A DNA stretch of 32,984 nucleotides from Sandarakinorhabdus cyanobacteriorum (lineage in GTDB: Bacteria > Pseudomonadota > Alphaproteobacteria > Sphingomonadales > Sphingomonadaceae): NCBI RefSeq assembly GCF_002251755.1, contig NZ_NOXT01000077.1, positions 1 through 32,984 on the forward strand. Reading direction: 5' to 3'. A model generated the notes under the pieces. It was given only the letters and a program-made list of their open reading frames with translations, was not told where the DNA came from and searched no databases. Numbering within the stretch: position 1 is the first letter of the stretch; every line of letters starts with the position of its first letter. A program made the translations under genes and the position numbers. Shown here piece by piece: positions 29,363 to 32,556 of the stretch.

Positions 29363-29953
29363 TCAGGGGCGGCCGGGGCGGGCTGCGCCGGGGCGCATGG
29401 CGGCCGGGCGGCCAACGCGGCTCAGCAGGCGCTGCGGGCCGGTGGTGGTGATGTTGCGAGTCACCTGGCCATTGGCGGCGCGGGTGGCGGTGAGATTGCG
29501 GCTCGCCACGGTTTCGCCAGCGGCGTTGGTGAGGGCGCGGTTGGCCGTGATTGTGCCATCGGCGCGGCTGACATTCCCGTTCAAGGTCAATGTGTTGCCC
29601 TGAGGGCCGGTGATGGTGCCGGTTTCGGTGAAGCCGGTTTCGGTGCGGGTGCGGGTGATCTCGCTGCTGCTGGTGCGGCCGTCAAAGCCGGTGCGGCTGG
29701 TGGCGGTGGTGACGCTGCCATCGGCGCGGGTGCGTTCGATGCTGCTTGTCATCGTGGCGCCGTCGCTCTTGCGGGTCACCTCGACGGTGCGGGCAAAGCT
29801 GCCGGCGTCGGGGTCGCGGGTCACGGTCACGGTGCCGCTCACCTTGGCGTTGTCGATCGTCTTGGTGGTGGTGCCGGCGGCAGGCGCAGTTTGTGCTGCG
29901 GCAGGCAGGGCCATCATCAGGGCGACGGCCGAGACAAGCATCTGGATACGCAT
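29363..29953 (-). CDS. Secreted Thr/Arg-rich repeat protein
   Basis: 196 aa with a clear signal peptide (MRIQMLVSAVALMMALPAAA). From about residue 45 to 175 it consists of about eight imperfect units of 13-16 residues, each centred on a DG, NG or EG turn flanked by Thr, Arg and Ser, for example RTRADGSVTTATSR and VSRADGTITANRA. The pattern predicts stacked beta-hairpins. The C-terminus is basic and Pro-rich. Family not recognised. ATG 29953 has AGAGGGAG upstream. It is preceded by its own ECF-type promoter and lies downstream of the sigma/anti-sigma pair. Confidence 0.75.
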   Translation of the reverse strand: MRIQMLVSAVALMMALPAAAQTAPAAGTTTKTIDNAKVSGTVTVTRDPDAGSFARTVEVTRKSDGATMTSSIERTRADGSVTTATSRTGFDGRTSSSEITRTRTETGFTETGTITGPQGNTLTLNGNVSRADGTITANRALTNAAGETVASRNLTATRAANGQVTRNITTTGPQRLLSRVGRPAAMRPGAARPGRP

Positions 29954-30007: not shown

Positions 30008-30035
30008 TAACGTGGCGGCGGGGAAACTCCTTCGC
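30008..30035 (-). promoter_or_regulatory. Putative ECF promoter of the repeat-protein gene
   Basis: On the minus strand: GCGAAGGA (30035-30028), 15-base spacer, CGTTA (30012-30008), about 54 bases upstream of the start at 29953. Two further copies flank the sigma-factor gene. This is the pattern expected for a -35/-10 pair recognised by an ECF sigma factor. Confidence 0.6.
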
Positions 30036-30045
30036 GGGCCCCCGG

Positions 30046-30924
30046 TCAGCGGGGGCGGGTGGCCGGCGGCGGGCGATTGGCACGGGCGGCGCGCAGGGTT
30101 TGCAGGGCGCGCAGCTGGCGGGCCTGATCGGGGGTGAGGCTGCCATTCTGCCGGGCCTGGCGCAGCGCCTGCAGGGCGGCGGCGCGTTCGGCGGCGGTGG
30201 CGGGCAGCGTGGCGGCCGGGCCGGATCGCGTAGCCGATTCCGCTGCATCGGTGGCCGCATCCGGCGCGGCGGTGACCGCGGGCGGCGCAGTGGTGACCGC
30301 ATCCGGCAGCGGCGGGATCGCGACCGGCGGCGGCGCGATCAGCATCGGCCGCGCCGGCAGATCCGGCAGATGTTCGGCACGAATGGCGGCGCGAATTGCG
30401 GTTGGCGCGGGGCGTGCCGGTGCGGCTGGCGGCCGGCTGGCGAGCGGGGCTGGCGGCGCGAAGGTGGGCAGGGTGGCCGGGGCGGCCGGGGCGGGCAGTT
30501 CGGCCTGCAGGCGCGGGGGAGGGAGCGCAGGGGTCGCAAGGGCCGGCGGTGCGGCGGCAGGGGCTGGCTGCGCCGGGTGGGGCCGGGCGGCGGTTCGGGC
30601 AGTTGGCTGTGGCCGCCGGGCGGGGGCTGGTGCGACGCCCAGCTGCTGCAACAGCGGGGCCAGGATCGGCGCGAGCCGGGGCACGTCCACCAGCCCGGCG
30701 GCGACGGCGCTGCCGATGGCAAGGCTGGCAGCGATGGCAATCGCCGGGCGCAGCCAGCGGCGGCGGGCAGGGCGCAGCGCCGTTGGTGGGGGCAGCGGCA
30801 CCGGATCGGCCGGCAGGGCCGCCATGATGCGATCGCACAGGCCGGCGGGCAGTGGCGGGGTGGTGCTGGCAGCACCGAGCAGGCGGGCGAGATCCGCATC
30901 GGAAATGGCAGGGGTGAAGCTCAT
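30046..30924 (-). CDS. Probable membrane anti-sigma factor
   Basis: 292 aa. A cytoplasmic N-terminus of about 55 residues (SFTPAISDADLARLLGA, then LPAGLCDRIMAALPADP) is followed by basic RPARRRW and one membrane helix (LRPAIAIAASLAIGSAVAAG). A long Ala/Pro-rich, presumably periplasmic region ends in the helical segment LQALRQARQNGSLTPDQARQ. No zinc-binding HxxxCxxC anti-sigma motif is present. The call rests on topology and on the 4-base overlap with the ECF sigma gene (ATGA). The C-terminal helix is faintly like LTxxQ/heavy-metal-sensor helices. It could instead be an unrelated membrane protein. Confidence 0.65.
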   Translation of the reverse strand: MSFTPAISDADLARLLGAASTTPPLPAGLCDRIMAALPADPVPLPPPTALRPARRRWLRPAIAIAASLAIGSAVAAGLVDVPRLAPILAPLLQQLGVAPAPARRPQPTARTAARPHPAQPAPAAAPPALATPALPPPRLQAELPAPAAPATLPTFAPPAPLASRPPAAPARPAPTAIRAAIRAEHLPDLPARPMLIAPPPVAIPPLPDAVTTAPPAVTAAPDAATDAAESATRSGPAATLPATAAERAAALQALRQARQNGSLTPDQARQLRALQTLRAARANRPPPATRPR

Positions 30925-31514
30925 GCCAAGTCTCCCGGCAGATCGGCGGCGGACAGGCCGGCCGCCGCCATCACGCCCTTCAGCGCGGCGCGGGCGCGGA
31001 TCAGCAGCGATTCGAATGCCTTGGGGCTGAGGCTGAGGGTTTCGGCGGCCATGGGCCCGGTCAATCCTTCCCAATAGGTGAGCACAATGGCGGCGCGTTG
31101 GCGTTCGGGCAGGGCGGCAACACACAGCTGGATGCGGCGGGCGGTGTCGGCCTCTGCCAGCACGGCATCGGCCAGCGGCGCCGGATCGGGATCATCCGGC
31201 AGATCGGCCATCGGCTGCGGCCGTTTGCGGCGGCTGCGATCGATGGCAAGATTGGTCACCACCCGGGTGAGGAAGGCCGCCACCCCGGCCTGCCCGGCCT
31301 GCCAGCGCGGCGCCTGGGCCCACAGCCGGGCAAAACCTTCCTGCACCAGATCCTCCGCATCGCCGGCATCGCCAGCGAGGCGAAAGGCCAGCCGCCAGGC
31401 CGCACTGCCATGGCGTTCGAACAGCCGGGCGAAGGCCGCACGGCTGCCGGCCGCCACCGCTGCCATCAGGGCATCATCGCCAAGGCCGGGATCGTCCAGC
31501 CGCTCCATCAACAC
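30921..31514 (-). CDS. ECF-family RNA polymerase sigma factor
   Basis: Sigma-70-type factor of the extracytoplasmic-function group. Region 2 has FARLFERHGSAAWRLAFRLA and the core-binding DAEDLVQEGFARLWAQAPRW, followed by FLTRVVTNLAIDRSRRKRP. Region 4 has LPERQRAAIVLTYWEGLTGP and the helix-turn-helix LSLSPKAFESLLIRARAALK. I chose GTG 31514 (197 aa) because AGGAAAGGG lies 8 bases before it and because the predicted promoter's CGTTA overlaps the upstream ATG at 31550. That ATG would give 209 aa; ATG 31508 is also possible. Coupled to the probable anti-sigma gene. Confidence 0.92.
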   Translation of the reverse strand: MLMERLDDPGLGDDALMAAVAAGSRAAFARLFERHGSAAWRLAFRLAGDAGDAEDLVQEGFARLWAQAPRWQAGQAGVAAFLTRVVTNLAIDRSRRKRPQPMADLPDDPDPAPLADAVLAEADTARRIQLCVAALPERQRAAIVLTYWEGLTGPMAAETLSLSPKAFESLLIRARAALKGVMAAAGLSAADLPGDLA

Positions 31515-31549
31515 CAGGCGCGCCCTTTCCTGCCGGCTGCCATTGGTCA

Positions 31550-31578
31550 TAACGTGGCGGCGGCGGCCTTTCCTTCGC
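31550..31578 (-). promoter_or_regulatory. Putative autoregulatory ECF promoter of the sigma gene
   Basis: On the minus strand: GCGAAGGA (31578-31571), 16-base spacer, CGTTA (31554-31550). It shares both boxes with the elements at 30008-30035 and 31602-31630. Transcription would start inside the longest sigma reading frame, which supports the internal start at 31514. Confidence 0.6.
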
Positions 31579-31601
31579 GGCAGCGAAAAATTTGCGGCGG
31601 C

Positions 31602-31630
31602 GCGAAGGAGCCGGCGCCGTTGCTGCGTTA
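31602..31630 (+). promoter_or_regulatory. Putative ECF promoter of the beta-barrel gene
   Basis: On the plus strand: GCGAAGGA (31602-31609), 16-base spacer, CGTTA (31626-31630), 41 bases before ATG 31672. It is back to back with the sigma-gene promoter, and the two -35 boxes are 23 bases apart. Confidence 0.6.
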
Positions 31631-31671: not shown

Positions 31672-32556
31672 ATGTCGAGGCAGATCATGCTGGCCGCCGT
31701 GCTGCTGGCCAGCGCCAGCGCCGCCACCGCGCAAGAGGGCAGCGCCGCCCAGCCGGCCGATCGCGAGCGGCCGTGGGCCCTGTCCCTGCTGGGCGGCATC
31801 ACCGCGGTGCAGGCGCAGGCCGATCAGCCGTTCGCCAGCCTGGGGATTGCCCGCAATTTCGGCAACAGCTGGGTGAAGGGTGAGGTGACTTATGTCGGCA
31901 GCGGCGATGCCCGGGCGCTGACCATTCCGGCCGACACCTGGATCGGCGGGCTTTCGGCCGGCACTTATGTCGGCAATCTCGGGCTGGAAGGCCATGTCTC
32001 GCTCGGCACCCGCAAATTCGATGCCAGCAGCTTCCGCACCCAGGCCGGGGCGCCGATCAGTGTTGGCCGCTCGGGCAGCCTGTTCGGCCTTGGCGGTTCG
32101 GTCAGTTACGATATCGCCGTGGGCGACCGCCTGTTCCTCACCCCCTATGCCGGGGTGGATTACAGCCAGATCGATTTTGCCGTGGCCCTAACCGGGCCCA
32201 CCGGGCGGCCGATTTCCAGCCAGTCGCAATCGGCGGACGGGGTGACCGGATCGGCCGGCGCGGCGCTGACCTGGATGTTTGCCAATGACGGCGGCAGCTT
32301 TGGCCTCAACGCCGCGTTCAACACCGCCAGCAACATTGCCGCCGTGGCCCAGGTGGGTACGGGCCAGCGCACGGCGGCCGGCACGCCGCGCTTTGTCGAT
32401 GCGCCCACCACCAAGGGCAGCTGGGGCGAACTGGGCGCCACGCTGAGCTTCAATGCGTCGAAGGCGGTGGCGATCGACCTTTCGGTGATCCAGACGGTGA
32501 GCTTCCCGTTTGGCGACACCACGGCAGGGATCGCGGGGGTGCGGTTCCGGTTTTGA
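31672..32556 (+). CDS. Predicted outer-membrane beta-barrel protein
   Basis: 294 aa. The signal peptide (SRQIMLAAVLLASASAATAQ) is followed by repeated amphipathic strands with Gly/aromatic patterning (NSWVKGEVTYVGSG, GLEGHVSLGTRKF, SLFGLGGSVSYDIAVGDRLF, LTPYAGVDYSQIDFAVAL). It ends in VRFRF, with the terminal Phe typical of outer-membrane insertion signals. The fold resembles autotransporter-like or porin-like barrels of 8-12 strands; function unknown. GGGGAG 8 bases before ATG 31672 supports the start. Divergent from the sigma gene and preceded by the same type of promoter, so likely part of its regulon. Confidence 0.8.
   Translation: MSRQIMLAAVLLASASAATAQEGSAAQPADRERPWALSLLGGITAVQAQADQPFASLGIARNFGNSWVKGEVTYVGSGDARALTIPADTWIGGLSAGTYVGNLGLEGHVSLGTRKFDASSFRTQAGAPISVGRSGSLFGLGGSVSYDIAVGDRLFLTPYAGVDYSQIDFAVALTGPTGRPISSQSQSADGVTGSAGAALTWMFANDGGSFGLNAAFNTASNIAAVAQVGTGQRTAAGTPRFVDAPTTKGSWGELGATLSFNASKAVAIDLSVIQTVSFPFGDTTAGIAGVRFRF

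Follow-up and report, generated by a model that had tools for sequence, protein, structure and literature searches.

What reads three copies of one two-box DNA element, all of them packed into a single 1.6 kb module of a 3.53 Mb bacterial genome and found nowhere else in it? The question is raised by one stretch of DNA from Sandarakinorhabdus cyanobacteriorum (contig NZ_NOXT01000077.1), which we have analysed at its full length of 32,984 nucleotides and which we call the window. A preliminary description had proposed that the copies are the promoters of the ECF sigma factor encoded among them, and we have tried to find out how well that idea fares, first in the window itself, then in the relatives of the organism, and especially in those relatives that have no such sigma factor.

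The module runs, from left to right, from a gene for a secreted protein through those for a putative anti-sigma factor and the ECF sigma factor, all three on the minus strand, to a divergent gene for an outer-membrane barrel on the plus strand. The sigma factor (30921..31514, minus) matches Sigma70_r2 (65.6 bits) and Sigma70_r4_2 (43.6 bits) in Pfam, both above cut-off, and the sigma70-ECF family TIGR02937 in NCBIfam at 78.8 bits against a cut-off of 42.9; region 1.1 and region 3 are absent among the Pfam and NCBIfam matches listed for it, and this makeup, regions 2 and 4 and neither of the others, is that of an ECF (group IV) sigma factor. Its best sequence matches among solved structures are also ECF sigma factors (SigE and SigK, for example), and its top-scoring NCBIfam family is PRK05602, yet the score of 186.8 bits falls below the curated cut-off of 208, so that the protein is not a formal member. 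The longest open reading frame for it begins at ATG 31550; in four orthologues (L005, L006, L007 and L065), the frame that follows the upstream site begins MLMERL or MLMQRL, which corresponds to GTG 31514 here and makes GTG 31514 the likely start.

The start of the next gene (30046..30924, minus) overlaps the sigma stop codon. Its product opens with a short N-terminal part, after which come a single hydrophobic segment from about residue 61 (where the 19-residue hydropathy reaches its maximum, 2.18) and a Pro/Ala-rich remainder; that is, the sigma factor is co-encoded with a predicted transmembrane protein. No recognised anti-sigma domain scored above cut-off in Pfam or NCBIfam, so the name that we use, putative membrane anti-sigma factor, rests on position and architecture. 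The secreted protein (29363..29953, minus) is a Thr/Arg-rich repeat protein with a signal peptide recognised by eye. Its model is an 11-strand beta meander with a mean pLDDT of 82.3 and block means of at least 90 over residues 31 to 170, for which no fold in the PDB matched at E<=0.001 (matches to OspA and to porins were weak). The barrel gene (31672..32556, plus) carries the Pfam Autotransporter beta-domain, and its AlphaFold model, built from 5 sequences, has a mean pLDDT of 29.

Where do the elements lie relative to these genes? The candidate promoter of the sigma/anti-sigma operon (CGAAGG-N17-CGTT, 29 nt) occupies 31550..31578 on the minus strand, 35 nt before GTG 31514, and that of the divergent barrel gene, of the same form and length, occupies 31602..31630 on the plus strand, 41 nt before ATG 31672. 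The third, for the secreted repeat protein (CGAAGG-N16-CGTT, 28 nt), occupies 30008..30035 on the minus strand, 10 nt beyond the stop codon of the anti-sigma gene and 54 nt ahead of ATG 29953. Scanning the window for GCGAAGGA-N14-17-CGTTA returned these three matches, with exactly the coordinates and strands of the preliminary description, and 100 dinucleotide shuffles of the window returned none; in the whole genome (3,532,745 bases in 130 contigs), the same pattern again occurs at these three sites only, against one match for a reversed-pattern control. The preliminary description was right that the spacer of the third copy is dissimilar (copies 1 and 2 have CCGCCGCCACGTTA in common and copy 3 differs). 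It had also put the sites 30-60 bases from the start codons, which stands for the distances given above and fails for the longest sigma frame, whose ATG 31550 sits within that gene's own -10 box.

Is the element kept where this kind of sigma factor is kept? We collected 97 related loci, made up of 4 close named-genome loci (from 31 matches), 29 family loci (sigma matches at E<=1e-25 in 149 genomes) and 64 order loci (from 73 matches at E<=1e-50 in 396 genomes, of which 7 were already in the set and 2 were left out). On the sigma strand and no more than 190 nt upstream, CGAAGG-N16/17-CGT is present in 59 of the 97, whereas shuffles of the same stretches gave a mean of 0.19 and a maximum of 1, the reversed pattern gave 0, spacers of 12-13 and 20-21 nt gave 3 and 0, and putting GGAAC in the place of CGAAGG gave 1. 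The opposite orientation was found in 14 of the 97 stretches, as divergent promoters would give (not each was checked). Among the 38 loci from which the exact sigma-proximal site is absent, one (L067) has a one-base variant. Judged by sequence, the site at 31550-31578 and its 59 counterparts have what one expects of the autoregulated promoter of an ECF sigma factor.

Sought anywhere in the locus, CGAAGG-N16/17-CGTT is present in all 4 close named relatives, in 11 of the 12 closer family loci (L064-L075) and in 2 of the 17 more distant loci L076-L092 (the reversed pattern is in 1 of 33), and on a tree of the 33 sigma factors, it is clustered without marking one clade (5 changes, where shuffling gave 11.2 on average). 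In other families of the order, 18 of 21 loci have the sigma-proximal site, there with CGTA as the -10. Counted over all three kinds of position (113 sites), the spacer is 16 nt in 81 and 17 nt in 32, and there is bias at positions outside the search pattern: G before the -35 box (0.59 bits), G or A after it (0.85 bits) followed by TT, and T or A after CGT (1.0 bits). In other words, the motif stands at equivalent positions of related modules, while its spacers have diverged. Nor is it frequent in unrelated places, a finding that, like its conservation, goes in favour of the preliminary description; the exact form is absent from the rest of the genome and from all 27 paralogous ECF loci examined (from 28 paralogue matches in 11 genus genomes).

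By loose labels, all three kinds of site are present in 9 of the 97 loci, two kinds in 19 more and none in 28. The third kind can be missed because the loci stop about 1500 nt beyond the sigma gene. The labelling of the third gene is a loose heuristic that flagged 25 of the 97 loci, at least one of them wrongly (L075); this run, with a slightly different window, counted the sigma site in 60 loci instead of 59. In many loci the divergent product is a barrel of about 280-300 aa, in others it is the start of a larger autotransporter-like protein, and downstream of the third site there is often a gene for a secreted protein whose repeats are of the TRT type seen in the window. In 15 loci compared for the distance that separates the divergent -35 boxes, it is 25-30 bp in seven (L004-L007, L064, L065 and L144) and 7-8 bp in five (L068, L069, L071, L073 and L134), and in L147 the boxes overlap by 2 bp; L184 and L188 are near-palindromes and were counted in both directions. 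Given that overlap, and a gap of about 3 bp in the genus genome G480, helical phasing of the boxes is only a guess. For a time, the motif seemed tied to a long second gene (the anti-sigma). The idea held in the first family set, where second ORFs are 104-162 aa long in the 17 loci L076-L092, and it was dropped because loci in other families of the order have short second ORFs yet carry the sigma-proximal site. At seven paralogous loci (L278-L281 and L283-L285), CG(A/G)GGG-N17-CGTA stands, by eye, before the ECF gene, an element close to the one studied here and distinct from it.

Orientation, spacing, position before start codons, conservation, co-occurrence with one kind of sigma factor and absence at the paralogues all agree with a reading of the sites as promoters that the adjacent ECF sigma factor recognises, and they support the central proposal of the preliminary description. 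We consider it very probable that the three sites are autoregulated promoters of that sigma factor, with a -35 box other than GGAAC. How might such a module work? We infer recognition of the sites by the adjacent sigma factor, an anti-sigma function for its neighbour, a signal and a role at the envelope, which could go together as follows. The membrane protein encoded after the sigma factor would keep it inactive until an envelope signal released it to bind RNA polymerase; the holoenzyme would then read -35 CGAAGG and -10 CGT(T/A), 16 or 17 bp apart. It would transcribe its own operon, giving positive feedback together with its own inhibitor, as well as the divergent outer-membrane barrel and, from a separate promoter, the secreted beta-meander protein. 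Most of the likely targets are exported or have to do with the envelope, which makes an envelope response plausible.

Known systems resemble the module in part. It shares its general plan with the RpoE envelope stress response, in which a membrane-held sigma factor answers outer-membrane trouble (PMC8103513), and differs in promoter and partners. It is like the EcfG (ECF15) general stress promoters of alphaproteobacteria in its GTT at -10, its similar spacing and its autoregulation, and those of Sphingomonas melonis Fr1 are given as GGAAC-N17-20-GTT (PMC6599016). Here, in contrast, the -35 is CGAAGG, the product of the second gene is a putative membrane protein and the genome has few sites; the GGAAC of EcfG/ECF15 is absent at all three of them, and the GGAAC version of the pattern is, as noted, upstream of only 1 of the 97 related loci. 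The same mixture is seen with RpoE1, RpoE3, RpoE4 and RpoE6 (ECF26) of Sinorhizobium meliloti (PMC6180224): their anti-sigma factors consist of an N-terminal domain, a transmembrane segment and a periplasmic part, rpoE6 and a serine protease gene are arranged divergently, and the consensus is -35 GGAATA and -10 GT. The pairing of a sigma factor with a membrane anti-sigma factor (putative here) is shared, whereas the -35 is not GGAATA and the neighbouring genes differ. A limited literature search, which covered titles and abstract starts of openly licensed papers among the matches listed and had the promoter predictions of the ECF reclassification outside its scope, found no description of the CGAAGG motif or of the module.

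What becomes of such promoters when their sigma factor is missing? The genus itself has made the comparison for us, for the sigma factor is present in 7 of its 24 genomes (E<=1e-60); a recheck of eight sigma-minus genomes at E<=1e-20 gave paralogues as the best matches, at about 1e-37 to 1e-30. All 7 sigma-bearing genomes have the divergent pair of sites, and two sites within 2 kb were found in no sigma-minus genome of the genus (from a list read by eye). The barrel gene (E<=1e-10) is likewise in 7 of 7 sigma-bearing genomes and in 0 of 17 others. The secreted protein (E<=1e-5) is found in 6 of the 7 and also in 4 of the 17, with a match in two pieces in G476 and G480, and the exact element stands upstream of its gene in all 6 of the former and in 3 of the 4 sigma-minus genomes (G020, G340 and G482), the fourth, G483, having CGGAGG instead of CGAAGG. 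In 9 of the 10 genomes with a homologue, the element precedes the beginning of the protein match by 82-83 nt (its place in G470 and G476 being taken from site and match coordinates).

In the sigma-bearing G106, the gene order is rluC - secreted gene - anti-sigma - sigma - barrel - pnp, and in G020, G340, G482 and G483, it is rluC - secreted gene - pnp (with extra DNA beside rluC in G483), the sigma, anti-sigma and barrel genes all missing between the secreted gene and pnp (L271, L272, L274 and L273, respectively). Is this loss, or were the three genes never there? KdsD, used in the place of a genus tree, is 85% identical to that of G106 in G340 and G482, 82% in G483 and 76% in the sigma-bearing G000, and these identities suggest that G340, G482 and G483 are nested within the sigma-bearing group, which makes loss of the sigma factor the simpler reading.

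What speaks most strongly against an exclusive regulon is the surviving promoter of the secreted protein. Present in three of the four sigma-minus genomes that have the gene, in a locus without sigma factor, anti-sigma factor and barrel, it implies that the adjacent sigma factor may not be its sole user. The sites could all be ECF promoters and still be read, at one place or more, by another ECF sigma factor, instead of the adjacent one or alongside it. A paralogous ECF kept in the genus might do so, having the similar CG(A/G)GGG-N17-CGTA upstream of its gene (by eye, in 7 stretches, 6 of them in detail). The exact element, however, is at none of the 27 paralogue loci, the barrel and the divergent pair are found only where the adjacent sigma factor is found, and at a site upstream of a Kdo operon, to which we return below, the sigma-minus genomes lack an exact -35. 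On balance, we regard a second reader as unlikely, though by no means negligible. Far less probable, in our view, is an element that serves a DNA-binding regulator as its operator and is no sigma promoter at all. In two genomes (G008, locus L072; G138, locus L075), the motif does stand before a gene close to the sigma gene that resembles, by eye, one for an OmpR-type response regulator, and an unsystematic reading of the modules noticed no recurrent regulator gene besides those two; an operator, moreover, sits badly with an asymmetric, two-box element that keeps a fixed orientation towards the start codon and a spacing of 16-17 bp, and whose -10 resembles that of the EcfG promoters. As for mere chance, or a local duplication of recent date, to which the GC-rich region and the 14 nt common to the 3' ends of copies 1 and 2 might point, and although isolated chance matches are common (32 of the 149 family genomes, our own counted, have at least one exact match), three clustered within 1.6 kb are not, and with empty shuffles, three copies genome-wide in one module, and boxes that stay while spacers diverge within and between genomes, we give it practically no credence.

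If the sites are indeed promoters of the adjacent sigma factor, does it have others? The best candidate is GCGAAGG-N17-CGTT about 100-120 nt upstream of a kdsD homologue, found in all 5 sigma-bearing genomes with the gene (G000, contig C119, L227 and L241; G106, C17, L228 and L235; G476, C14, L229 and L242; G480, C26, L240 and L245; G481, C111, L239 and L250) and in none of 5 sigma-minus genomes. Two of those five have CGAGGG at its position, and the homologue of one (G473), with an identity of only 51%, is perhaps no orthologue. After kdsD, G000 has genes with cytidylyltransferase, DAHP-synthase-type (KdsA-like) and capsule synthesis family matches, and similar ORFs follow in G106 and G476. 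The chances are about even that this site, upstream of a Kdo/capsule operon, is a fourth target of the sigma factor, because it was noticed post hoc by its recurrence, the genomes are related and it overlaps (by eye) the first codons of a divergent HAD-type gene. The stretch from the motif position to kdsD also contains a conserved near-palindrome, TGTCAAGAATTGAC (L235, L236, L237, L239, L240, L241 and L242), carried by the five sigma-bearing genomes and by the sigma-minus G340 and G482. Another site, before a fatty-acid hydroxylase gene, is exact in G000, G106 and G476, has one mismatch in G480 and is not visible in G481, where the contig ends; among four sigma-minus genomes, two have it with one mismatch and two have none. 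Its distance from the likely ATG, about 205-235 nt, leaves it a weak candidate.

Looser searches enlarge the picture only a little. A relaxed pattern has 32 matches in the organism's own genome against 27 in the reversed control, and most of the 29 that were inspected, the three module sites aside, lie in long open frames, so we claim no large regulon. Across 25 more distant genomes (two of them unintended), CGAAGGGTT-N13/14-CGTT has 42 matches, of which 20 fall at sigma modules and 22 lie elsewhere; the reversed control has 12, so that the distal matches exceed it only modestly. Of 13 distal matches inspected, four (L308, L310, L320 and L326, three of them from one genus) precede by 31-61 nt the genes of alpha/beta hydrolases (Pfam BD-FAE; exported, by eye), and one precedes the gene of a polysaccharide synthesis protein. 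The regulon may thus be somewhat larger than three sites.

One can imagine more than this, and we do so tentatively, holding the whole picture to be possible and rather doubtful. This kind of sigma factor, which occurs across the order, might read a class of promoters marked by the CGAAGG -35 box and governing a regulon for remodelling the cell surface (barrel or autotransporter, secreted beta-meander protein, Kdo/capsule synthesis, fatty-acid hydroxylase and secreted hydrolases), and a lineage that lost the sigma factor, anti-sigma factor and barrel together might have kept the promoter of the secreted protein, which a sister sigma factor with a near-identical box would have taken over while the other sites decayed. 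Such a history, if true, would amount to the takeover of a regulon in nature. In any event, an uncharacterised ECF sigma factor becomes a testable regulon, with named promoters, named partners and natural relatives that have no such sigma factor, and its presence and absence within one genus offers a way to ask what becomes of promoters after their sigma factor is lost. So sharply defined a promoter, without GGAAC, may even serve as an orthogonal switch.
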